The notes beneath the pieces were generated by a model, which was given only the letters and a program-made list of their open reading frames with translations, made no database searches and was not told the origin of the DNA. The translations under genes and the position numbers were made by a program. From Oscillospiraceae bacterium (GTDB lineage: Bacteria; Bacillota; Clostridia; Oscillospirales; Ruminococcaceae), in assembly GCA_017533485.1 (NCBI GenBank), contig JAFXIC010000018.1, positions 1 to 44,886 on the forward strand: a stretch of DNA of 44,886 nucleotides. Direction: 5' to 3'. This document shows, one piece after another, positions 1 to 14,387 of this stretch (within the stretch, counting starts at the first letter, position 1; every line of letters starts with the position of its first letter).

Positions 1-517
1 CCGCATCATTTGCCGAAAGAATGTCATCGCCGTCGCAATTTGCGTTAATGCGTCCCTGCTCTGTAATATCCACGGAAGTATCCTCTGATGCAACACGAGC
101 GATTAGAATTACATCGGAAATATCGACCTCATCATTACAGGTCGCATCACCTCTCATCGTCATACCCTCCGGCAGCGTTTTGTCGGATGAGGTCGTTGTC
201 GTGCAAATCCAGTAATCGTATTCAGAGTCAGTGGTTTCAGTGGTTGTGGTTGTACCAATTTCGTAATAGTCATTGGTTTCAGTGGTTGCAACAGATGTAC
301 CAATTTCGTAATAGTCAGTGGTTTCAGTGGTTGACGTGGTTGTACCAATTTCGTCATAGTCATCGTATGATACACCACCGACTTCATTCACAGTGTTTGT
401 GTTGGACGATGAATCCTGTGCGCTCGCATGCGATATGCTTTTCACCAGACCATAGCCTGATGAACCCAGCGCAACAAGTGTCATCATCGAAGTGATTTGT
501 TTTGTGAATTTTCTCAT
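1..517 (-). CDS. Secreted dockerin protein with 15-residue repeats (partial, runs off window)
   Basis: Reading leftward from the ATG at 517 there is an open frame of 172 codons with no stop before the window edge. It starts with a signal peptide (MRKFTKQITSMMTLVALGSS, cleavage likely after SHASA near residue 33). A repeat region of roughly residues 48-105 follows, built of 15-residue units around DYYEIGT and TTET. After a short linker there is a dockerin type I domain: the first calcium loop lies in GDATCNDEVDISDVILIAR and the second in INANCDGDDILSANDA. Dockerins dock enzymes or surface proteins onto cohesin-bearing scaffoldins outside the cell. The start overlaps the stop of the upstream radical SAM gene by ATGA and has its own GGAGGG site 8 bases upstream, so the two should be co-translated. 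No catalytic domain is visible in this part; the remainder lies outside the window. The repeat region is a plausible substrate for the neighbouring enzyme (inference). Confidence 0.85.
   Translation of the reverse strand, partial: MRKFTKQITSMMTLVALGSSGYGLVKSISHASAQDSSSNTNTVNEVGGVSYDDYDEIGTTTSTTETTDYYEIGTSVATTETNDYYEIGTTTTTETTDSEYDYWICTTTTSSDKTLPEGMTMRGDATCNDEVDISDVILIARVASEDTSVDITEQGRINANCDGDDILSANDA
209..365 (-). repeat. Tandem 45-bp repeat inside the dockerin gene
   Basis: On the plus strand, ACCAATTTCG recurs at 254, 299 and 344, exactly 45 bp apart, with a further degenerate unit on the left (about 209-253). In protein this is a 15-residue unit, [T/N]DYYEIGT followed by Thr-rich residues and TTET. 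The period is a multiple of three, so the reading frame is kept. It is a coding minisatellite and has no spacer structure. Confidence 0.85.
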
Positions 518-1494
518 GTGTTTTTCCCTCCATTTGAATGTGTAATCAATTCAAGTGCACATAATATCTGCACTTGTTCTTCCATACAAGCTGCTTCCGA
601 AATGTTCCGCACGGTACCGGTCGTGACCATTTTTCTGCAAGCACAGGAATTTCGGCAGTATCTTGCAATTTCACATCCCTCGCATCGTTCCGACAGCATC
701 GAATAGTCTGGGAACGCTTCTCTTGCTTTTTCGGGCTGAATGCCAACAGATAAACTTCCACACAGAAATTCCGAACGATTCTGAAACTGGACACAAGGAT
801 AAAACTGACCATCCCAGTTAATGAACAATTTGTTCTTGCAGATTTCGCAAAGACTGGATTGTTTGCCATTGATTCGATCTCGTTTCTGGACTAGCTCAAG
901 TATCCTCAGGTTCGGAATGCGTGCGATTTTCCGCCACTGTTCGTACATGATATTTCCGAATTGATCGATGTCGGCAGGATTCGCATTTGCGTCCAAAGAA
1001 GCGGATACCTTTTTCGCTCCAAGATTTTTTAGGTGTAGAATGTTATCGTATAAATTCGGGAGCGTTTCTTCGGTGTAGACAAGCTGAAACAGTGTGTTTG
1101 TCTGATGCTTGACAAGTAATTTTGCCTTTTCGTCCAGAAGCTTTGTATCAACACCGCGTTCTGCACATTTTGCTCCATCATGCGACATATTCAGAACAAT
1201 GCTTCTCTCGGCACACCACATAATGAATTCTTCATCCAGCATGGTTCCGTTTGTCGTGATGACCAGTGTTCGGGCATTCAGGTTTTCGCATAAGAACCGT
1301 ACTTTATCTTTATAAAGCAGCGGTTCGCCGCCAAACAGGAATATAGTATCTGCATCTTTGCGCTGATTGATAAAATTCACGACACGCTGCATGGTTTCGT
1401 CCGACATTGATCCATACTCTGTATTCATCTTTTTTTCGTAACAGTAACTGCAATGCAGATTGCATTGATTGGTAATACTGATCGTATATTCCAA
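514..1494 (-). CDS. Radical SAM/SPASM enzyme, probable peptide or protein maturase
   Basis: A 326-residue radical SAM enzyme. The 4Fe-4S motif CNLHCSYC (C11, C15, C18) is at the N-terminus, followed by the glycine-rich SAM-binding stretch FLFGGEPLL near residue 55. The C-terminal third has a SPASM-type auxiliary cluster region: CEICKNKLFINWDGQFYPC, then CEGCEIARYCRNSCACRK and a final AACMEEQ. SPASM enzymes commonly make post-translational changes in ribosomal peptides or in partner proteins such as sulfatases. No sulfatase or quinohemoprotein is nearby. The only visible partner is the repeat-bearing secreted dockerin protein, whose ATG overlaps this gene's TGA. I chose the TTG at 1494 because GGAGGG (1501-1506) sits 6 bases upstream; an ATG five bases further up is in another frame. 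A consensus promoter lies at 1560-1588. The family is certain; the substrate is inferred. Confidence 0.9.
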   Translation of the reverse strand: MEYTISITNQCNLHCSYCYEKKMNTEYGSMSDETMQRVVNFINQRKDADTIFLFGGEPLLYKDKVRFLCENLNARTLVITTNGTMLDEEFIMWCAERSIVLNMSHDGAKCAERGVDTKLLDEKAKLLVKHQTNTLFQLVYTEETLPNLYDNILHLKNLGAKKVSASLDANANPADIDQFGNIMYEQWRKIARIPNLRILELVQKRDRINGKQSSLCEICKNKLFINWDGQFYPCVQFQNRSEFLCGSLSVGIQPEKAREAFPDYSMLSERCEGCEIARYCRNSCACRKMVTTGTVRNISEAACMEEQVQILCALELITHSNGGKNT

Positions 1495-1559
1495 ACCATT
1501 CCCTCCTTTTTTTCAGGTAACATCAGATGGCGTGACAGGCTGTTCGATCCAATGAAGTT

Positions 1560-1588
1560 ATTATAACATAATCTTTACGGTTTTGCAA
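1560..1588 (-). promoter_or_regulatory. Sigma-A promoter for radical SAM-dockerin operon
   Basis: Read on the minus strand: -35 TTGCAA (1583-1588), 17-base spacer, -10 TATAAT (1560-1565). Transcription would start near 1553, giving a leader of about 60 bases before the TTG start at 1494. Confidence 0.75.
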
Positions 1589-2781: not shown

Positions 2782-5541
2782 ATGAATCCAATCAAAAAAA
2801 CGGCATCTGTTCTCTTGGCAGGTGCAATGCTCAGCGGAATGCTGCCGCTCGTCACACCCGAATATGCACTCGAAGCCAATGCGTTAATCGCCGGTGATGT
2901 CAATCTGGACAATACCATGGACGAGACTGACGCCCGTGCATTGCTGGACTATCTCTGCGGAAAAACCAAGAATATCTCGAACGCAGACTTAGACTATGAT
3001 GATCGGGTCACGGCTTCCGATCTGACACTCTTAAAACGTATGCTTCTAGGCACAGTCGGCTCCGACAGCTTTGCACACCTGAAAATCAACGAGGTCTGTT
3101 CGACAAACAAAACCTCGCTGAAAGCTGCGGACGGCACAAGTCCGGACTGGATTGAGCTGCTGAACACCGGTGATACCGCAATCGACCTCAGCGGTGTCGG
3201 TGTATCGGACGGGGAAAAGAACAGCTTTAAATTCAAGTTCCCGGATGGTGCCTCCTTACAGCCCGGCGGCTACTGTATCATCTTCTGTGACGATAAGAAT
3301 GCTGTCACACCCGAATACCATGCCGCATTCAAAATCAGTGCGGCAGGCGAAACCATCTTCCTCACCGCACCCGATGGCACACCGATTGATGCAGTCGAAC
3401 TGCCGGAGCTGGAAACCGATGTCACCTACGGCAGATACACCGATGGTTCTTCCAATTTCGCACTCCTCAAGCCGACACCTGCCAATTCCAATGACGCGGC
3501 AGAAGTCATATACCGCGTCGAGAAGCCTGTCTTCTCCACGGAAGGCGGATTCTATGATGCGGCATTCTCGCTCACCCTTTCGGATGCCGCCGGAAATACC
3601 ATCCTCTATACCCTTGACGGCTCCGATCCGCGCACATCTTCTACCGCACAGCAATATACTTCCGCCATCAATATCCGCGACAACACCAATGATCCCAATA
3701 AGCTTTCGGCGATTCGGGATATTTCGCTTCGCGGATACACCGTCCCCGATTATCAGGTGGACAAGGGCATGGTTGTACGTGCCGTCGCAAAGGACAAGAA
3801 CGGAAAGTTCAGCGAGGTGGCTACCAATAACTACTTCATCGGCAAAACCGCTTCCTACTATACCGACATGAAGGTACTCTCGATTTCGACCGACAGCGCA
3901 AACTTCTTTGATGAAAACACCGGTATCTACATGATCGGAAATCAATACTACCAGTGGAAAAACAGCGGTGCGTTCGATCCCAATCTGGATGTCGGAAGCA
4001 ACGAAAACCCCACCAACTATAACAGCGAAGGCAGAGAATGGGAACGCCCCTGCAATATTCAGGTCTTTGAACAGGGCGAGCTGAAATACACCGAGGATGT
4101 CGGCGTCCGGATCTCCGGAAACTGGACCGCTGCGTTCCCCCAGAAGAGCCTGACATTCTATGCACGCTCCGATTACGGCGCAAATAAGATGCAGTACGAT
4201 TTCTTTGAGGGCGGCGCAGTCGATCTCAATGGCGAGAAAATCAAGGAATATAAAAAGGTTACCCTCCGAAACGGCGGAAACGGCTATGACAATATGCGCT
4301 TCCGCGATGACCTCAACCAGTCTCTTGCGGCGGGTCTCCAGCTCGGCACACAGGCAAAATATGACTATGCCGTATTCCTCGACGGTGAATTCTGGGGCTG
4401 CTATTCGATGCAGGAAAAACTCGACGAGAACTATGTCGAAGCGCACTACGGCATCGACGCCGATAACGTCACAACCATCAAAAACGGCAGGGAATATGAA
4501 GGACTTGACGCAACCTACCAGAGCTTTGAACAGTTCTGGAATTGGGCAATGTATGCCGATATGTCGAACGTCTCCAATTACCAGCGCGTTTGTGACACCA
4601 TCGACATTCAGGGCTTTATGGACTTTATCGCATTCGAAAGCTATATCGTCAACTGGGACTGCCTCATCAATCCCAATAACTGGATGATCTGGCGTGCGGA
4701 TGAAACGGACGCGTCTAACCCCTATGCAGACGGAAAATGGCGCTTCCTCCTCTTTGACACCGAATATTCCTCCGGCTATGACGGCCAGTGTCCGCTGTCA
4801 CGCGACTGCTTCAAGGCGATGGATAATTCTAAGTATATAACCAGCATCAGCTCCCTGTTCTTAAAGCTGATGGACAACCAGACATTCCGCCAGACATTCT
4901 ATGATGTATTCCAAAATGTTGCGAAAACCAATTTCGACGCCAACATGGTTTCTCAGAAAATTGACGAATACGCACAGAAAACAAAAGCCGGCGCAGAAGC
5001 AACCTACCGCAGATTTGCCATCGGCGCAAACTTCGACAGCAATGTAAAGATTATCCGCAACTTCTATAACAAGCGTGCGGCATACGCCATCCACCACCTC
5101 AATGTCCTCTACGGCATCAACGATAACTGGGTCGATGACCCCAATATGATCGACCAGTTCGGCTGGAGCATCTGGATGAATGACGGCGCAGGCTCGATTT
5201 CCTATGAGGATGACGGCAGCATCACGGTCGTCGTGACCCGCACCGGTCAGTATGCTCAGGTCACCAGCAGCACCGTTGCGCTTCAGGCCGGAAAAACCTA
5301 CCGTATGACCTATACCATCAGCGCAAGCCAGAACATCAACTCCTATACCATGTTCCAGGAAGCGCAGGACGACTACTCCAGCTACTACTATCAGGATCAT
5401 ACCTTCACGCCTACGCCCCAGACAATCACCGATACGGTAACCATGACGCAGACGGATGAAAACGTAAAGTTCCTCATCGGTCTTGACAAGGGTACGGGTA
5501 CCTACCGGATCTCCAACTTCTCGCTCATCTGTCTGAACTAA
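2782..5541 (+). CDS. Secreted CotH-kinase protein with dockerin and lamin-tail domains
   Basis: A 919-residue secreted protein. In order it has: a signal peptide (to about residue 34); an N-terminal dockerin (about 38-90, with GDVNLDNTMDETDARALLDY and DLDYDDRVTASDLTLLKR); a lamin-tail domain (about 100-200, with INEVCS and DWIELLNTG); a chitobiase C-terminal-like domain (about 247-355, with LYTLDGSDPR); a CotH kinase domain (about 363-775, with VRISGNWTAAFPQKSLTFYA, YAVFLDGEFWGCYSMQEKLD and WRFLLFDTEYSSG); and a C-terminal carbohydrate-binding-module-like beta domain (about 792-919). CotH proteins are atypical kinases that phosphorylate secreted proteins; dockerin-CotH fusions are known from cellulosome producers. 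The start at 2782 follows AAAAGGAGGGGG and begins the signal peptide; an upstream in-frame extension would sit in the leader. It is a single gene with its own promoter and terminator, opposite an AraC-type regulator. Confidence 0.93.
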   Translation: MNPIKKTASVLLAGAMLSGMLPLVTPEYALEANALIAGDVNLDNTMDETDARALLDYLCGKTKNISNADLDYDDRVTASDLTLLKRMLLGTVGSDSFAHLKINEVCSTNKTSLKAADGTSPDWIELLNTGDTAIDLSGVGVSDGEKNSFKFKFPDGASLQPGGYCIIFCDDKNAVTPEYHAAFKISAAGETIFLTAPDGTPIDAVELPELETDVTYGRYTDGSSNFALLKPTPANSNDAAEVIYRVEKPVFSTEGGFYDAAFSLTLSDAAGNTILYTLDGSDPRTSSTAQQYTSAINIRDNTNDPNKLSAIRDISLRGYTVPDYQVDKGMVVRAVAKDKNGKFSEVATNNYFIGKTASYYTDMKVLSISTDSANFFDENTGIYMIGNQYYQWKNSGAFDPNLDVGSNENPTNYNSEGREWERPCNIQVFEQGELKYTEDVGVRISGNWTAAFPQKSLTFYARSDYGANKMQYDFFEGGAVDLNGEKIKEYKKVTLRNGGNGYDNMRFRDDLNQSLAAGLQLGTQAKYDYAVFLDGEFWGCYSMQEKLDENYVEAHYGIDADNVTTIKNGREYEGLDATYQSFEQFWNWAMYADMSNVSNYQRVCDTIDIQGFMDFIAFESYIVNWDCLINPNNWMIWRADETDASNPYADGKWRFLLFDTEYSSGYDGQCPLSRDCFKAMDNSKYITSISSLFLKLMDNQTFRQTFYDVFQNVAKTNFDANMVSQKIDEYAQKTKAGAEATYRRFAIGANFDSNVKIIRNFYNKRAAYAIHHLNVLYGINDNWVDDPNMIDQFGWSIWMNDGAGSISYEDDGSITVVVTRTGQYAQVTSSTVALQAGKTYRMTYTISASQNINSYTMFQEAQDDYSSYYYQDHTFTPTPQTITDTVTMTQTDENVKFLIGLDKGTGTYRISNFSLICLN

Positions 5542-5753: not shown

Positions 5754-5782
5754 TTGACATCCTTTCCAAAATCAGTTATAAT
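5754..5782 (+). promoter_or_regulatory. Perfect consensus promoter for the giant surface-protein operon
   Basis: TTGACA (5754-5759), 17-base spacer, TATAAT (5777-5782). Both hexamers match the sigma-A consensus exactly, which suggests strong expression. A TTG start in the same frame at 5754 is this -35 box, so translation must begin downstream. Confidence 0.88.
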
Positions 5783-5828
5783 AAAAAATGGCTTTTTTCA
5801 CAAAAATACGCGCGAAAGGATACTACCA

Positions 5829-8800
5829 ATGACAAAATTTTTCTTGAAATTCCTAAGTGGAATGACGTCAGCTTCCCTCCTGCTCGGTGCGCTTACGCCA
5901 ACGCTTGCGTATGCTGTCGATCCCGATGCCCCGACGTTCGATGCCGATGTCAATCAGGATGGTAAAGTCGATCAGAACGATGTACAGAAAATTCTGGACA
6001 TCATCGCCGGATTCACCAAAACCATTTCTGCGGAAGACGGCTACGAAGTCTATGACGCAAACCATAACGGCTTCGTCGATCCTGCCGATGCACTCGCTGT
6101 CAGCCAATATGTTGACGGCTCCCGAAAATCACTCCCCGCACCCTATGGAACATTTCTCGATAACTCCATCGGTCTTTCCTGTACGGACGCATCCTGTTTC
6201 ATAGACGAAACTGCTTCAGTTCAGTTCAGTATTGTGGACTGGAACAAGGATATCGCTGCATATGATTTTATTTTTCATGCCGATCCGGGTCTGGAGATCG
6301 AATCCGTCAACTGTAACGGAAACGCCCGCTCCGTCATCAAAAATAATACCGTCCGCATCTTTGGTCTCGGCACCGATCTGGAGCTGAACCGCGGAAAAAT
6401 CGCTTCGATCCAGCTCTCTCCTCCAGCAGAGGGTGATTTCCGGCTCTCTCTTGACGCATCCAACATCTATGCCTCCAATCTCGACTACTACCCCTCCAAG
6501 AATCCACAGGCAATCGTCAGCTGTTACGCCGTATTCGCACCGGTTGCGCTGGAAGCGGCAGGCGTTTCTTCGAAATCTGCCTGTATTTCCTGGGAGATGC
6601 CGTTTTCGGATTCTCCTGTCACAGGCTTTGCTGTTTACCGGAATCAGGAATACCTTGCCGATACCGTCGAAACAATATTCTATGATACCGATCTCGATCC
6701 CGATACCGAATATACCTATACCGTTTGTGCCTATAACCAAAACGGCAATCAGACCGACTTCTCCGAACCGCTGACTATAAAGACCGCGGCTCCGGTGATT
6801 ACAGGCGCAAGCTTTCCCGCAGAAGCTGTTTCCTATACCAACAGCCGGCTGAGCATAGAATTCGAACGCGAAGCCCTCCTTTCCGCACTGCAATTCGATT
6901 TCAGTACCGATGGAAAGATCGTGCATTCTGAAAAACTGGAGCTGGATGGAAAGGGAATGAAATCCCTGACGCAGCAGATCAACACCGCACCGCTTTCCTC
7001 CGGCGACTATCTGCTCACGATCACCGCGACCGATATCGATGGTCAGTCCGATACCCACACAATGAACGTCAGCATCCGGAACGACCGACCTGCCGCACTG
7101 ACACTCACCGCACACCCCGGCAGCGAATCGGTAACACTTACCTGGAATATCGCACCCGAACCGGATGTTGTCGCGTATCATGTCTACCGTCAGGCACCTG
7201 ATGAGAAAGAACCAACCCTCCTTCAGGTCATTTCGGATCGTGAAAAGCTCGATTTCACTGACACAATGCTGGACGCCAACGCAAAATATACCTATGGCGT
7301 TACAGCCGTCAACAGCTATGGCGCAGAAAGTGAACGCAGCAATCTCGAAACCGTTCAGCCGGATCCCGATACCACTGCACCCCAGATCACACTCCTATTC
7401 CCGAAAACCGGCTCGACTGCCCATCAGACCCAGAATATCCGTGTAGAAGCGACCGATAACAGCCGCATGGGCCGTGTCGAATGCCATATTTCCGCCGATG
7501 AGGGAAAAACATGGGAGCTGCTCTTTGCCGAAGAAGGCGGAAGCGGAATCTGGGCACTCGATACCACAAAGTATCCCGATGGCATCTATCATCTCAAAGC
7601 CGCTGCATATGACGCTTCCGGAAACGAATGTCCGGATACTTATATCAATATCGTAAAATTTGACAACACTGCACCCGAAACCATCGAAAATATCCATCTT
7701 GTCGAGCTTTATCCCACAACCGCAACCATCGGATGGGACAATGTTGCGGCGCAGGATTTCAGTAAGTTCCTCTTTACACTTTCCTATGGAAATACCACCA
7801 AAACCTATACCGTCAACAATAAACTCGGCATTACACTCGAAAACCTGAAACCCGGTCAGCTCTATTCCGCTACGGTTGCAGCGATCGACCAATGCGGCAA
7901 CGTCGGTCAGACATCCGAACCGTTTTGTTTCGAAACGCCTGCCGATATTACCGCGCCTGTTATTACAGAGCTGCGCATACCGGGAACTGTCCGCAACGGC
8001 GGCGAGTTCCAGCTCCGGATTGCGGCATCGGATGTTTCAAAAATCAAAACCTATTACTTCGAATATTCCCAGGATCTGGTCGAATGGAAACCGCTCTTAC
8101 GCTACAGCGAAGAATTTATATGGAAACCAAGCGGTCTGACCGAAGGTATTCTCTATGTCCGTGCCTACGCGGAAGATATTTATCACAATATCGGCAACCC
8201 GGAGACTGCAAAGATCACCGAAATCATCGTCGATAATACTGCACCGCAGACGCTCCCGACACTTTCGGCACAGTCCGCAGATAATGGCATTGAACTCAGT
8301 TGGAACTATATCGAGGATGAACCGGGGCAAAGCTTCATTCTCCAGCGTTCTACGTTCAAAAACTTCACCTCCTATAAAACCATTTTAGAGTATTATACCC
8401 GTAACAACTGTACGGATACCGACACGACTTCGGGAAAAACCTATTATTATCGGATTGCTGTTGCGGACGAAGTCGGGAATATCAGCAGTTTTTCCGATCC
8501 GATTGCAGTACAGCGCGAAAAGGACAAGATTTGTCCGGAAATCACAGACTTCTATTTCTCAAATTCGAAATATGTCCTGTGCAGCGACTTCCGTACCGTC
8601 CAGTTCATGGCGAAAGATAATGAATATCTCGAACGCATCGAGGTCAGCTATGCACTCGATGGCTCGGATAGCTGGACAAAGCTGAGCGGTGAAATCCAAA
8701 CCTCCTCCGACTCCCGTCAGCTCCTTATCCGGATTGAGCTGCCCGAATCGGTGCTGGAAGCAGATACCGTTACCCTCCGCGCCATTGCTTATGACCATGA

Positions 8801-11800
8801 ATCCAATCCTTCCGAAACTTATGAAGCAGTCTTTACGGTTGACCACAATCCGATCTTTGTCGAAAACCTGACAGTCACACAGGTAAACGGTGAAGTCATC
8901 GTCAGCTGGGACTGTTCCGATTTGGAAGAAATCCGTTCCTTCTCCGTGGAGCGTTCCATCAATGACGGTCATTACTACTCCATCCAGAGCAATATCAAAC
9001 CGGATCCCACACAGACCTCCTACTCCATTTCAGATAACAGACTCGAATACAGCGGTTCTTATGTATACCGCGTCCTCGTCAATAAAACCAATCTGATCGT
9101 CAATGAAACCACCGCAGAGCCGGTCGAAATCCAGGGAATCCCAAGACCCAGTCTCGTTTGTGATACTGCCCAGACGCTCGGTGCCGCATATTATTTCGAT
9201 GCAACCGGCTCTGCGTATGCCGACGAGATCACTTCCCTGATCCTCGATTACGGCGACGGCACAACCGATACCGCTTCCGAGGTATCTGCCGCAAAATTCC
9301 AGCATACCTATGCGGAAGCCGGAACCTATACCGCCACGCTGACCTGTACCAATGCCGCCGGTATCTCCCGGAGCACAACCGCAAAAATTACCGTAGAAGA
9401 TGCCTCCCAGCTCGCGAAAGTCCAGCTTCAGGTCAAAACATCCGATGGCGCGAAAGCAGCGAATATTTCTGTATATATGGATGTCGGCACCGACCAGCAG
9501 ATGCAGTACGAAACCGATCAAAACGGTACCGTATCCTTCTATGCCTCCGAGGGCAATCATGAAATCGGTGTGTTCGGAAACAACTATCTTCCTGCTACGA
9601 AGACGGTCTCCCTCATCGCGGGTGCAGAAAATAAGGTTGAATTTACGGTCGTCCGCGATCAGCTGGTTGACGCGAAATTCGAAATTACCCGCATGACCCT
9701 CGAAGAAATCAAAGCCGCCGGTATTGATGTCGAAGATCCCGAAAACATCAATATCGTAAAAGTCGATATCCGCCTCAAGTATGAACAGAATATCGAAGAT
9801 TCGCCTTCCCGGAACCTCAGCTTTCTCTATGACAACAATTCCGGCACTTACCATCTCCCCGCAGCGATGACAAGTCAAGGCTATTCAATTCAGGCTGTGA
9901 AAACAAATTCATATACCCACCAGATCGAAACCATCGCCCTGCTGCACATTCCGCCCGAAGTCCATTCGCTCAAAGAATTCTTTAACGTCAAGATGATCGT
10001 CATCAACAACGCAGATACTTCCTTTACGCTCGAAGACTGTACGGCTACAATCCATACGCCGAAAGGATTGACGTTGATGGAGGAGAATGCTTCGCCGCGC
10101 ACCGTTTCCCTCGGCAATATCGCAGGTCAGAGTTCTGCAGAAGTCAACTGGATTCTCCGCGGCGATGTCGAAGGCGAGTACCATATTTCCGCAGGCTTTC
10201 AGGCGGTACTCTCGAAATTCAATCAGCCGGTCTCCTATATCTTTGATGCCGAACAGACAATCGAAGTCCTCGGCAAAAAAGCCCTCGATATTACCATCAG
10301 CATCCATCCTGTTGTCAAAAATAACTGTACATATGCAGAAATCCTGATGAAAAACATTGCCGATTTCCCGATTTATCAGGTCGGCGCAAAAATCGAAGAC
10401 GGTACGCTCGTCATCGTACATGGCGACAACAATACTTCAAAAGCAGTCATCTGTGAATCCGCCCATTATGATACCAGAAAAGTCTGGACAAAGCTGGACG
10501 GAAATCCTGAGATGATTGAAACGCTCCTTCCCGGCGAAATTTTCAGCCTCGTCTTCCGAATCTCAAACAAATCGGAAAACTTTAAGAAGGAATCGTTTGA
10601 ACGGATCAAAGGCTCCCTCGAAGCAATCATGCCCGACGGCGCCCAGATTACAACAAAAGTCTCTTCGGTCGGCTTCCTGGATGTCGATTCGATTTTCTAC
10701 GGCATCCCCTTTGACGCAGAAACACAGTACCTCTTTGCGATCCGCAATAAGGCACACAAAGAGCTTGCCGATGCGGCAGTTACGGTCTATACCGTAACCG
10801 AAGACAACGAAAAGATTGTCTACGCGGCCGGTCTTACAGATGAACGCGGAAGATTTATCGTCCCCCGCGGCATAAAGGAACAAAAATACTATATCGAAGT
10901 CACCGCAGAAGGATACAGAAAATATTACGAACCCCATTTCTTCTTCTCCCCGAACCAGTATTCCAGTACATTCACACTCACCGGCGATTTCTTAGAGTAT
11001 GATTATAAGCTCCAGAGTGCCTCTATTGCGACCGTTAAGACGTGCTATGCCGATATTCTCAGAAAACAGTATGCAATCCTTGACGACGTAGAGGATGAAT
11101 TCAAGATTTCCGTCGTAGGCGTCGAAGGCATCACAAAATTCGAGCTTCGACAACCCGATAGGTTTATCGCCAGCTGTAAGGCGAATTCGTATTATGGCGG
11201 TACGTTCGAATCTCTGCACGCTGCATATTTTGATGTCGGACAGCCGATTTACGTAGAGGCTTATCTGGAAACCGGAGACTACATCAAAACAATGCTCGGT
11301 CTGAAAATTATGGAAAATCCGAAGCGTCAGACCAATTATCTCAAAAAACAAATGGAAGATCTTCTGGACAACGAACCCAACGTCAGCTTCAAAGTGCCTA
11401 AAGAAACGCCGATGGTTGGTGGTGTCGATATGACAATCGACCTTGAAAAGCTCTGTGATCTTCCGATAGAAGTTGAATTCAGCTTCGGTGACGCCCAATA
11501 TATTGATGACAACTACGAAATAATCTATGATAAATCAGTTGATGTCTCAATTGCTGTCAACCTCAAAGACCTGAAAGACGATAAAGAAGAAGAATCAAAG
11601 AAATTCAATGCCGACGAATGGAGACGTCAGATCGACGAAGCGAAAAAAAATGTGAAAGCTCTCCGAAAACATCCGATCCCCCGGTTCAGCCTCAAAAGCG
11701 ATTCCGATGACGGCAAGTCCACGAATGCGAAAAGCGAATTATGTTTTGCGATGCTGTTCTCCGGATCATACGACTTGAAAGAGAAGAGTCTTTCCGGCGA

Positions 11801-14387
11801 TATTGATTTCGCCCTGATGTATGAACTCAGCGGCGAAATCGCTTCATTCAATACGTACGTTGGACCGATTCCGGTATATGGCGCATTCGAAGGTTCGATC
11901 GGCGCTCAGATAGGCACCAACATCAGCTACAACACGGAAAAAGGGTTCGATTTTACTCTCTTTAAACTTGGCGCTTTTTTTGAATTGAGTGGCAAAGCCT
12001 GTGTAGGTCTCAGTTACGGCGATTTCAGTGCTGGTCTCGGCGGAAAAGTAATCGCCGGCGGTGAAGTCTCCACATCACTCTTGCCCCTGGAACTCTTGGA
12101 AGTCACCGCACACTTTGAAGGCGGATTAGTTGCTGATTTCATCATTGGAGAATATTATGTTGAACTGGGCGGCGGAGACTTAATACTATATTCATCAGAT
12201 CCACCCGAACACGTACGACCCGAATCTAGCGGAGGAGGAGGCGGTCACAGCCGCGCGCTCACACGAAGTCAGCTCCTTGCGCTCGGATTCTCGGAAAAAG
12301 ACATTGACGCGGGAATCAAACAGGTTTCTGTCTCATCTCCCTCCAGCGTGTGGAACGGAAACTGGACGGATACACAGCCGCTCAATCAGCTTGCATCGCA
12401 TACCGCCGCGACCCTCCCGCAAAAGCTCGTTTCCTTTGGCGATACCGCAATGCTCATCTGGAACGCCCGCGACAATGAACGCGGAGGCTATAATTCCAAA
12501 TACCTCGTATATGCAATCTATGATAAGGAAAACGGATGCTGGAGCGAACCGAAACCCATCGACAGCAACCAACAGTCTGAAATCATTTCGTCCGTCATCG
12601 AAACACCGCAGGGCATCTATCTTGCATATCTGGAAGCGGATCGTGTATATGAAGCGGACGAAGCCATCGACATCCCCGACTATTTCAACCGCCTCACCCT
12701 CAAAACTGCACGCTATGATGCACAAACCGATTCCTTTACCGACCATACCGCAATTCCGCTGCAATCAGACAGCCATTCGTTCTCAAATGCACAGTTTGTG
12801 ACGGATGCAAACGGCACAACCTACCTCTTCTGGAACGAATCAAACGATGAACAGCTCAGCAGCCTTTGCTATGCGACACGTACCGAAACCGGCTGGTCCG
12901 AGCCGACCGTTCTCCTCGATGAGATCCCCGGACTCAGCGCACTCGCCTGCACCACAAGTACAAGCGGAAAGCCTGTCGCAGCTTATCTCTCCAATCCCGA
13001 TGCGGATACGGTCAAATTCGATTATGCACAGCTCACCATCTGTGATATGGACGGTACGACATCCGTACTGGATGAAGGTTCGATCGGCGGTCTGACCACA
13101 GGCGCTCTCCCACAGGGCGGAACCGGTGTCATGTGGGTACGGGAAGGAAAGCTTTTTGCTTCCGCCGACCTCAGCACTCCCGTGCTGCTCTATCAGCATA
13201 CCGAACCGCTCATGTCCGATGATTATACCGTCAGCGGCGATCAGGTCTTCTTTACTGCACTCTCCTCTGAATCCGCACAAATCCTTTCTGCAAGCTATAA
13301 TCCCGAGACCAAGACGCTCAATGCACCGGTTGTCATTTCGGAGGCGGACGATTCCTCGTTCTATTCTCCGCAGGCCATTACACTCGACAATCAGACAATC
13401 TATACCCTCGAAAGCTTACAGCAGAATGATACCGAACATGAATTCCCCGTTACCAATCTGCTGCTTGGCGGAACCATCCCCGAACGAACCGATCTTACCC
13501 TCAGCAATCTCTCCTATGAAATCGCAGACGCCGCAGCCGGAAAGCCGCTGAAGATCGGACTGGATATCCAGAACAACGGTACCACCTCCATCTCCGGCCT
13601 CAAGGCAGCACTTGTGGACGCGGCAGGCAATGAATATGCCGCCATCGAATACTCCGAAACACTCCTTCCGGGTGAAGCCAAGACGCTGGAATATGTACCG
13701 CAGCTGCCCGACGACTGCATGACAAACAGCTATCAGGTTCGTATCAGCACGGTTTCCGAGGACGCAAATCCAGATGACAATCTCATTTCCATTCCGATTG
13801 CCGCAACCGATTTCTCGATCGAAAGCACGGTGGAATATCTGGATGATCTTACGACCGTTTCGATTCTTGTGAAAAATAACGGCCAGCTCCCCTCACAGGC
13901 AATGGTTCTCGCTTCCAATTCTTCCGGCGAAACACTCCGTATGCTGACGGATATGATTGACCCGGGTGCGTCCATATTCTATACCTTCGACGGAAAAGAG
14001 CTTCTGGGTGATGCTTACCGTGATTTCGTCACACTGACCGTTCAGCCGGAAATGCAGGATTACGACACCTATAACAATAAGACAACCGTGATCCTCTCCC
14101 AGCTTGGTATGAACGATGAGGTCATGGGTGATATCGACTTCAACGGCGTGATCGACAGCGATGACTCGAACCTGATTCTCAAGCAGTATCTGAGCGATCT
14201 TGTCGGCACGGATGCACTTCTCTCACAGACGCAGATCTACCTTTCCGATATCAACAACGACAAGACCATCAACGCCGACGATGCAAATCTCGTTCTGCTC
14301 TACTATCTTGAGACAATGCTCGACAACACCTATGACTCTATTTCCGACTTTTATGAATCCTTACAAAAAGGAGGTTCCGGCGAATGA
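5829..14387 (+). CDS. Giant secreted multi-domain protein with N- and C-terminal dockerins
   Basis: A 2852-residue exported protein starting at the ATG after GAAAGGA, with signal peptide MTKFFLKFLSGMTSASLLLG. An N-terminal dockerin (about 37-95, DADVNQDGKVDQNDVQKILD) is followed by a beta domain that may be cohesin-like (about 103-237). Next come several fibronectin type III and Ig-like domains (about 237-1130), one PKD domain (about 1135-1195, LDYGDGTTDT) and a carboxypeptidase-regulatory-like domain. A long central region I cannot name follows, with a Lys/Glu-rich helical stretch near 1920-1950 and a Gly-rich beta region near 1980-2125. A Gly linker (near 2135) leads to propeller-like repeats (about 2158-2555, WNARDN, LFWNESND), two CARDB-like domains (about 2555-2760) and a C-terminal dockerin (about 2766-2834, GDIDFNGVIDSDDSNLILKQ). 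There is no obvious enzyme domain and no LPXTG. A structural or adaptor role on the cell surface is likely. Its stop overlaps the next start. Confidence 0.88.
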   Translation: MTKFFLKFLSGMTSASLLLGALTPTLAYAVDPDAPTFDADVNQDGKVDQNDVQKILDIIAGFTKTISAEDGYEVYDANHNGFVDPADALAVSQYVDGSRKSLPAPYGTFLDNSIGLSCTDASCFIDETASVQFSIVDWNKDIAAYDFIFHADPGLEIESVNCNGNARSVIKNNTVRIFGLGTDLELNRGKIASIQLSPPAEGDFRLSLDASNIYASNLDYYPSKNPQAIVSCYAVFAPVALEAAGVSSKSACISWEMPFSDSPVTGFAVYRNQEYLADTVETIFYDTDLDPDTEYTYTVCAYNQNGNQTDFSEPLTIKTAAPVITGASFPAEAVSYTNSRLSIEFEREALLSALQFDFSTDGKIVHSEKLELDGKGMKSLTQQINTAPLSSGDYLLTITATDIDGQSDTHTMNVSIRNDRPAALTLTAHPGSESVTLTWNIAPEPDVVAYHVYRQAPDEKEPTLLQVISDREKLDFTDTMLDANAKYTYGVTAVNSYGAESERSNLETVQPDPDTTAPQITLLFPKTGSTAHQTQNIRVEATDNSRMGRVECHISADEGKTWELLFAEEGGSGIWALDTTKYPDGIYHLKAAAYDASGNECPDTYINIVKFDNTAPETIENIHLVELYPTTATIGWDNVAAQDFSKFLFTLSYGNTTKTYTVNNKLGITLENLKPGQLYSATVAAIDQCGNVGQTSEPFCFETPADITAPVITELRIPGTVRNGGEFQLRIAASDVSKIKTYYFEYSQDLVEWKPLLRYSEEFIWKPSGLTEGILYVRAYAEDIYHNIGNPETAKITEIIVDNTAPQTLPTLSAQSADNGIELSWNYIEDEPGQSFILQRSTFKNFTSYKTILEYYTRNNCTDTDTTSGKTYYYRIAVADEVGNISSFSDPIAVQREKDKICPEITDFYFSNSKYVLCSDFRTVQFMAKDNEYLERIEVSYALDGSDSWTKLSGEIQTSSDSRQLLIRIELPESVLEADTVTLRAIAYDHESNPSETYEAVFTVDHNPIFVENLTVTQVNGEVIVSWDCSDLEEIRSFSVERSINDGHYYSIQSNIKPDPTQTSYSISDNRLEYSGSYVYRVLVNKTNLIVNETTAEPVEIQGIPRPSLVCDTAQTLGAAYYFDATGSAYADEITSLILDYGDGTTDTASEVSAAKFQHTYAEAGTYTATLTCTNAAGISRSTTAKITVEDASQLAKVQLQVKTSDGAKAANISVYMDVGTDQQMQYETDQNGTVSFYASEGNHEIGVFGNNYLPATKTVSLIAGAENKVEFTVVRDQLVDAKFEITRMTLEEIKAAGIDVEDPENINIVKVDIRLKYEQNIEDSPSRNLSFLYDNNSGTYHLPAAMTSQGYSIQAVKTNSYTHQIETIALLHIPPEVHSLKEFFNVKMIVINNADTSFTLEDCTATIHTPKGLTLMEENASPRTVSLGNIAGQSSAEVNWILRGDVEGEYHISAGFQAVLSKFNQPVSYIFDAEQTIEVLGKKALDITISIHPVVKNNCTYAEILMKNIADFPIYQVGAKIEDGTLVIVHGDNNTSKAVICESAHYDTRKVWTKLDGNPEMIETLLPGEIFSLVFRISNKSENFKKESFERIKGSLEAIMPDGAQITTKVSSVGFLDVDSIFYGIPFDAETQYLFAIRNKAHKELADAAVTVYTVTEDNEKIVYAAGLTDERGRFIVPRGIKEQKYYIEVTAEGYRKYYEPHFFFSPNQYSSTFTLTGDFLEYDYKLQSASIATVKTCYADILRKQYAILDDVEDEFKISVVGVEGITKFELRQPDRFIASCKANSYYGGTFESLHAAYFDVGQPIYVEAYLETGDYIKTMLGLKIMENPKRQTNYLKKQMEDLLDNEPNVSFKVPKETPMVGGVDMTIDLEKLCDLPIEVEFSFGDAQYIDDNYEIIYDKSVDVSIAVNLKDLKDDKEEESKKFNADEWRRQIDEAKKNVKALRKHPIPRFSLKSDSDDGKSTNAKSELCFAMLFSGSYDLKEKSLSGDIDFALMYELSGEIASFNTYVGPIPVYGAFEGSIGAQIGTNISYNTEKGFDFTLFKLGAFFELSGKACVGLSYGDFSAGLGGKVIAGGEVSTSLLPLELLEVTAHFEGGLVADFIIGEYYVELGGGDLILYSSDPPEHVRPESSGGGGGHSRALTRSQLLALGFSEKDIDAGIKQVSVSSPSSVWNGNWTDTQPLNQLASHTAATLPQKLVSFGDTAMLIWNARDNERGGYNSKYLVYAIYDKENGCWSEPKPIDSNQQSEIISSVIETPQGIYLAYLEADRVYEADEAIDIPDYFNRLTLKTARYDAQTDSFTDHTAIPLQSDSHSFSNAQFVTDANGTTYLFWNESNDEQLSSLCYATRTETGWSEPTVLLDEIPGLSALACTTSTSGKPVAAYLSNPDADTVKFDYAQLTICDMDGTTSVLDEGSIGGLTTGALPQGGTGVMWVREGKLFASADLSTPVLLYQHTEPLMSDDYTVSGDQVFFTALSSESAQILSASYNPETKTLNAPVVISEADDSSFYSPQAITLDNQTIYTLESLQQNDTEHEFPVTNLLLGGTIPERTDLTLSNLSYEIADAAAGKPLKIGLDIQNNGTTSISGLKAALVDAAGNEYAAIEYSETLLPGEAKTLEYVPQLPDDCMTNSYQVRISTVSEDANPDDNLISIPIAATDFSIESTVEYLDDLTTVSILVKNNGQLPSQAMVLASNSSGETLRMLTDMIDPGASIFYTFDGKELLGDAYRDFVTLTVQPEMQDYDTYNNKTTVILSQLGMNDEVMGDIDFNGVIDSDDSNLILKQYLSDLVGTDALLSQTQIYLSDINNDKTINADDANLVLLYYLETMLDNTYDSISDFYESLQKGGSGE

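Follow-up and report, generated by a model that had tools for sequence, protein, structure and literature searches.

A radical SAM/SPASM enzyme and an adjoining exported dockerin protein in Ruminococcaceae form a recurrent pair with a putative maturase/substrate relation

The window analyzed here is a whole contig (JAFXIC010000018.1, C1 in our numbering; 44,886 nucleotides) from an Oscillospiraceae bacterium, and close to its first position the minus strand carries a gene for a radical SAM/SPASM enzyme (514..1494) followed by a gene for an exported protein with a dockerin-type domain (2..517). The two genes stand together in all 28 distinct loci that we read, and this recurrence, taken with purifying selection on the enzyme, is more than chance. 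We propose a dedicated maturase/substrate pair, in which glycine-centred cores in the linker of the exported partner would be modified before export and the dockerin would thereafter dock the protein; we give this reading a probability of about 0.5.

The enzyme, here called A-type, is 326 amino acids long, starts with TTG and has its radical SAM core from residue 11 onwards, with no N-terminal extension. CxxxCxxC occupies residues 11-18 and all seven SPASM cysteines are present. The Pfam radical SAM model (PF04055) was passed with 58.9 bits (cut-off 29.5), and the match to the SPASM model (PF13186) was below its cut-off (15.8 vs 21.5). C11, C15 and C18 were found in 53/53 aligned enzymes, and the seven-cysteine SPASM pattern is complete in 27/27 of the A-type. 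Across four pairs the ratio of nonsynonymous to synonymous substitution rates (dN/dS) was 0.06-0.21 (0.09 between the window and its sister L027), and the enzyme is therefore under purifying selection.

The partner, which is the probable substrate, begins with ATG in an ATGA stop/start overlap with the enzyme gene (514..517), just as the initial annotation of this DNA had it, and a Shine-Dalgarno-like GGAGGG lies within the enzyme gene (526..531, by eye; similar in the orthologues). Since the window spans the whole contig, the partner runs off the sequence: 172 amino acids could be read, the frame is open at the contig end and the second dockerin repeat is incomplete. A signal peptide, assigned by eye, covers 419..517, and its n-region, MRKFTKQI, is a candidate leader. 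Three near-identical units, already noticed earlier and all of the DY[DY]EIGT type, follow: DYDEIGTTTSTTETT (317..361), DYYEIGTSVATTETN (272..316) and DYYEIGTTTTTETT (230..271). To these we added by eye a fourth, degenerate unit that had gone unlisted, DSEYDYWICTTTTS (188..229; YDYWICTTTT), with a Cys at the Gly position. The start of a dockerin-type domain, GDATCNDEVDIS...NANCDGDD (2..151), again recognized by eye, is cut by the contig end; all these features are on the minus strand. The earlier description of an exported dockerin protein is supported by the signal peptide, the repeated cores and, in some orthologues, a dockerin recognized by Pfam; the truncated partner in the window gave no match to the Pfam dockerin model (PF00404). 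Among four scanned orthologous partners L040 and L044 passed the cut-off, with no match for L027 and L030, and in the genome search the partners in G022 and G318 passed as well. The proposed cohesin-dockerin context is in keeping with 11 cohesin matches in the same genome, four of them within one 1,386-amino acid frame on contig C27.

A scan of GTDB contigs with the enzyme gave 19 relatives, 18 of which are orthologues with 63-89% identity (L027-L044); the match of the nineteenth (L045) spans 65 residues only. The orthologues come from fibre-degrading gut bacteria: Ruminococcus flavefaciens strains (Y1, YRD2003, YAD2003 and MC2020 among the matches) and gut metagenome-assembled genomes, some of them named after horse, yak, roe deer and rabbit samples. 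Directly downstream of the enzyme an exported protein of the M[RK]KFT type is encoded in 18/18 of these loci; in L032 and L037 the contig ends within its gene. A-type enzymes were further found in 5/30 genomes of the genus and 12/396 of the family, together 15 distinct genomes, and the partner adjoins the enzyme in all 15; five of these (G001, G010, G020, G233 and G403) are the same assemblies as loci already named, and the distinct loci, with the window included, come to 28. The co-occurrence across Ruminococcus genomes that the initial annotation had proposed to look for is hence present, and the homologues do not sit mostly beside an unrelated known substrate, which it had named as the contrary outcome. 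At the gene junction the ATGA overlap is found in 14 loci, a partner start 2-3 bases past the last stop base in eight, and a distance of 17-95 bases in six. Complete partners of at most 273 amino acids, consisting of signal peptide, linker and dockerin only, make up 15/27. The partners of L037 and L044 have long, mutually similar C-terminal extensions past the dockerin, with weak SH3-like matches in L044 (by eye).

The N-terminus of the partner, M[RK]KFT[KRN][EQD]I, is nearly confined to enzyme loci. K3, F4, T5 and I8 are invariant in 28/28 distinct partners (33 rows), and the signature persists in the loci where 17-95 bases separate the partner start from the enzyme stop. A degenerate DNA pattern for the signature, run on 40 genomes, gave 16 matches, of which 14 adjoin the enzyme, one belongs to a broken second copy and one is due to chance (L106, in G318). 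The pattern missed the enzyme-bearing G001, where the partner N-terminus is MKKFTKDI, and it had no match in 25 genomes of the genus without the enzyme, some of which are incomplete. The broken copy (L095, G020:C30:19034-19056) belongs to a sister species, lies away from the enzyme, and has a YEVGT unit in another frame. Such conservation would suit an n-region of the signal peptide that serves as leader.

Motif analysis was made on 24 linkers, i.e. 27 partners minus three near-copies. In 210 Gly contexts residue usage was skewed at all positions between -6 and +6, and motif discovery without anchoring on Gly returned P-[TL]-[AIEV]-G-[TVDE]-[MA]-[MVTI] at 132 sites, with a Gly frequency of 0.96 and a gain of 409, as compared to 92-104 in shuffles. 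Stretches of at least three Thr had been masked, because an unmasked search gave poly-Thr only; a five-position search blended two registers. The number of core sites per partner is 2-10, and in L052, with eight tandem units, the Gly is kept in 8/8 while the flanks vary (by eye). Tyr and Asp of DYYEIGT had earlier been taken as the conserved targets, and this did not hold: Y[EA]IG[TV] units occur among the 24 partners only in the window and in L027, and Tyr lies within five residues of 28/131 sites. A Tyr/Asp core was accordingly rejected outside the lineage of the window itself, the conserved position being the Gly. The same counts bear on an aromatic crosslink of the cyclophane or Tyr-Asp type, as the emphasis of the initial annotation on DYYEIGT would imply. 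Such a crosslink could draw on the Tyr of the three intact window units and of the L027 units, and 50/131 sites have an aromatic side chain or a His no more than five residues away. At the other 81/131 sites there is neither, however, and the partners of L036 and L043 have cores without any aromatics (by eye), and we regard such a crosslink as very unlikely.

Cysteines are scarce as well: the 24 linkers hold 29 in all, nine of them in one protein, and a Cys lies within five residues of 3/131 core sites, which makes thioether chemistry unlikely. The partner of L055 has the nine, the most of any, mainly as CxxC-type inserts among Gly-centred cores.

Alternatively, the enzyme may act elsewhere on the partner (dockerin or signal region) or on other proteins, with the Gly motifs as mere spacers in a perhaps glycosylated Thr-rich linker. 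Core modification is conjectural to begin with, some further dockerin proteins in the same genomes have Thr-rich linkers too, and two A-type enzymes (L059 and L060, see below) have no adjacent partner. We compared the partners with 15 Thr-rich segments (1,092 residues) taken, in three of the genomes, from dockerin proteins other than the partners (29 loci, two without a protein). The control segments contained the Gly motif 11 times vs 15.9 ± 2.8 when shuffled, i.e. not beyond chance, unlike the partners (157 vs 87.3 ± 7.4), and neither the n-region signature nor the Gly-centred linker was seen in these control proteins. In addition, a similar motif is found in the unrelated lipoprotein carriers of a related enzyme, described next, and we judge the spacer explanation to be quite unlikely.

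A second enzyme branch (B-type), 26-31% identical to the window enzyme, was found in 17/30 genomes of the genus (L008-L024). A lipoprotein gene ends at the enzyme start in 17/17 of these loci, with ATGA in 16 and a longer overlap in L012; in L013 the lipoprotein gene runs into the end of its contig. In genus g78 three related enzymes start 12 bases after a lipoprotein gene, and a family-wide search with the lipoprotein-linked branch gave 11/396 genomes. These lipoproteins contain LAGDVA, MLEGDVA, RLEGEAT and similar sequences, and motif discovery on 28 lipoproteins from 18 loci gave [LV]-x-L-[DEA]-G-[DE]-V (gain 478 vs 101-108 in shuffles), with two registers blended. When a matrix trained on the dockerin partners was applied, the 127 Gly contexts of the lipoprotein linkers scored above the 144 C-terminal ones (area under the curve 0.75; 0.73 ignoring Thr and Pro), and shuffling of the register lowered the linker mean from -2.48 to -3.43 ± 0.22. 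The lipoprotein beside L174 (genus g28) is almost all Thr-rich linker with such motifs and bridges the dockerin and lipoprotein forms. Order-wide, six more relatives scored 301-380 bits (L108-L113), and the lipoprotein of L108 has the Gly-centred motif. The likeness between the motifs of dockerin partners and lipoproteins is real but partial. The lipoproteins of L109-L112 and L175 have an extended N-terminus (...LPxRWxKN...) and are encoded upstream of PapB-like SPASM enzymes, the L112 enzyme being without several SPASM cysteines; for the L110 lipoprotein, the only one tested, NCBIfam gave no match.

What kind of enzyme is paired with these proteins was examined with family models, cysteine patterns and a tree. 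The best NCBIfam model was PapB (NF047865), with 109 bits for the A-type, 181 for one B-type enzyme and 218 for L108, against a cut-off of 340. Three verified SCIFF maturases reach 301-305 bits with the very same model, and scores of 109-218 bits thus do not make these enzymes PapB members. The window enzyme also falls short of the SCIFF model (TIGR03974, 69 bits vs 425), which 8/8 SCIFF comparison rows pass with 685-761 bits, and of the model for anaerobic sulfatase-maturating enzymes (anSME; TIGR03942, 63.8 vs 349.45 bits). The N-terminal extension of PapB and SCIFF enzymes, where the RiPP recognition element is placed (RiPP, ribosomally synthesized and post-translationally modified peptide), is absent from the A-type as judged by the core start at residue 11; the core begins at residue 121 in the PapB member L137 and at residue 93 in the PapB member L138, and the SCIFF model has 451 positions. 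A tree was built from 53 proteins, in which A, B, B2, PapB and SCIFF each formed one group and PapB plus SCIFF were split from the rest at 100/99; PapB and SCIFF were the only other SPASM families in it, and long branches meet.

These results bear directly on a PapB- or SCIFF-like role, as a thioether maturase for ranthipeptides or sactipeptides. Such an assignment has the PapB model as top match on its side, and the nearest solved structure by sequence, for A- and B-type alike, is 5wgg, a radical SAM protein that we take to be the SCIFF maturase CteB, followed by the anSME structures 4k36-4k39. PMC8326336 describes an auxiliary cluster of CteB as having an open site thought to bind the substrate thiol, and according to PMC9413430 PapB links Cys to Asp or Glu; precursors with Cys-Xn-Asp/Glu motifs do not agree with the scarcity of Cys in the 24 partner linkers. 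We rejected the assignment, as the partners have no conserved Cys and the bit score is far from the cut-off, and consider it highly improbable. In the enzyme, C216, C219, C234, C280, C284 and C286 align with anSME cysteines, which suggests a closed auxiliary cluster I (Aux I), and an extra ligand closing the auxiliary cluster would fit Cys-free substrates. C286, which forms a CxC, occurs in 27/27 A-type, 8/8 B, 3/3 B2 and 4/5 order-level enzymes, vs 0/2 PapB and 0/8 SCIFF proteins, while C219 and C245 are specific to the A-type among the aligned groups.

Another explanation is an epimerase, which would convert L- to D-residues beside the Gly, often Ala, Ile, Val or Glu at position -1, and so make the linker resistant to proteases. 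Position -1 is enriched for A, I and V while many side chains occur, and the conserved cysteines of the A-type (C94 in 26/27, C245 and C286 in 27/27) could donate the hydrogen atom. Known radical SAM epimerases, according to PMC8326336, act on Val and Ile among others, have a critical Cys and are apparently leader-independent. On the other hand E, M, Q, D, T and S are found at -1 too, the only extra Cys common to the B-type is C286, which lies beside SPASM ligands, and the full SPASM set would rather suggest an oxidative reaction. An epimerase is in our view unlikely, though worth keeping in mind.

Taken together, a sequence of events for the proposed maturase/substrate pair can be sketched. 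The enzyme would recognize the invariant n-region (KFT..I) of the signal peptide as leader, proceed along the Thr-rich linker while this is still unfolded in the cytoplasm, and modify each core, P-[LT]-[AIEV]-G-[TVDE]-x-[MVTI], by a radical-initiated reaction. The chemistry would most likely be oxidative, at the Gly alpha-carbon or at +1, with electrons leaving via the SPASM clusters and no cysteine partner; this is our first choice, and epimerisation the second. After Sec export the dockerin would attach the partner to a cohesin and several modified cores would be displayed outside the cell, with protease resistance, adhesion and metal or fibre binding as candidate roles. The part of the n-region in recognition, the action ahead of export and the proposed chemistry are all read from sequence patterns. 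More generally, SPASM enzymes that have no leader-binding domain may use the n-region as leader and modify, by a radical reaction that needs no Cys, Gly-centred cores along the linkers of surface proteins exported by Sec, with cellulosomal dockerin proteins in one branch and membrane lipoproteins in the other. This would be a new modification class and the first tie between radical SAM enzymes and the cellulosome that we found, and we see its chances as about even.

Several observations weigh against the proposal. That the partner is modified at all is something we infer, and we count it on this side. The A-type sits on a long branch in the tree and its kinship with the B-type is uncertain, and of the 127 lipoprotein contexts only 31% exceed a score of 2 when the dockerin-trained model is applied, the motif being similar and not identical. 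Among the more distant relatives the lipoproteins of L109-L111 have an HGxGxGxxGC stretch, Cys included; the lipoproteins of L112 and L175 also have a Gly-rich stretch, but this particular Cys is absent from it. No M[RK]KFT partner lies within about 1.5 kb of L059 and L060, which are second A-type enzymes in two g97 genomes and may act in trans. Finally, the AlphaFold model of the enzyme has a predicted template-modelling score (pTM) of 0.79, and its local confidence (pLDDT) is below 50 at residues 10-26, 235-240 and 283-293, i.e. at the active site and clusters.

Upstream of the enzyme gene the initial annotation had placed one consensus promoter for the pair. The sequence TTGCAA-17-TATAAT, with TG before the -10 (extended -10), is indeed present at 1560..1588 on the minus strand, but the scan counted 2 promoter-like sites vs 1.3 ± 1.2 in shuffles. 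As this is no higher than by chance, the promoter was dropped as evidence for the pair. Elsewhere in the window, on the plus strand, 2782-5541 encodes a CotH kinase protein with dockerin, lamin-tail and Fn3-associated domains (Pfam CotH 116.9 and Dockerin_1 30.4 bits), and 5754-14387 a protein of 2,877 amino acids that contains fibronectin III and PKD domains as well as a dockerin close to its N-terminus; at its C-terminus another dockerin-like pair can be made out by eye.

The pair belongs to a known kind, that of RiPP-like radical SAM maturases and their precursors: a dedicated enzyme adjoins a precursor with a conserved N-terminus and a variable repeated core. PapB and SCIFF maturases likewise have their precursor encoded nearby, and the A-type shares with them the radical SAM core plus SPASM and the same ten cysteines (C11, 15, 18, 216, 234, 271, 274, 280, 284 and 303 in window numbering). 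It differs by the missing N-terminal extension, by scores below both cut-offs, by its separate clade and by the extra C286, C219 and C245; moreover, its partner, unlike their precursors, is long and exported, and the Gly-centred cores of this partner are poor in Cys. The anSME are SPASM enzymes without a leader-binding domain whose target is a short motif within a larger protein, and they resemble the A-type in being the next closest solved structures and in the six aligned cysteines. In contrast to anSME, the A-type scores 64 bits vs 349, has no adjoining sulfatase, and goes with a dedicated operon partner that has many cores per protein. In PMC8326336, EpeE/YydG is presented as a radical SAM epimerase with one auxiliary cluster that acts on an exported peptide. 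The partner here is a long docked protein instead, no exporter or peptidase gene lies beside the pair in the window, and no EpeE/YydG-type model was among the best 25 of the 86 NCBIfam matches of the window enzyme. A parallel for the export route is provided by the bufferins and other precursors of multinuclear non-haem iron-dependent oxidative enzymes (MNIO): as described in PMC12452194, these carry Sec signal peptides, otherwise called rare among bacterial RiPP precursors, some are lipoproteins and some long proteins, and preliminary results make the signal peptide part of the recognition sequence. The enzyme class is another one, however, and the chemistry mostly Cys-based. With type I dockerin proteins of Ruminococcus cellulosomes the partners in L040, L044, G022 and G318 share the duplicated dockerin, as supported by Pfam. 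The partners differ from such proteins in that 15/27 are short and consist of signal peptide, linker and dockerin only, and from the control dockerin proteins in the n-region signature and the Gly-centred linker.

The initial annotation knew of no described system of this form. In line with this, no paper in the open-access collection searched was found by title or abstract to treat a radical SAM enzyme with a dockerin partner, or this motif, subscription papers being mostly outside the search; PMC4573289, which mentions both radical SAM and dockerin terms, is unrelated. The class of modification has itself a fair chance of being new. Most of what is known of radical SAM maturases concerns small peptides; in the present case a dedicated maturase is paired with a protein that is long, exported by Sec and able to dock, and a related enzyme is paired with lipoproteins. 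Should the cores indeed be modified, an unrecognized post-translational step would be added to cellulosome biology, and a Cys-free, Gly-centred class of targets with up to about ten units per protein to radical SAM chemistry. With named R. flavefaciens strains among the matches, the pair is accessible to ordinary proteomics.

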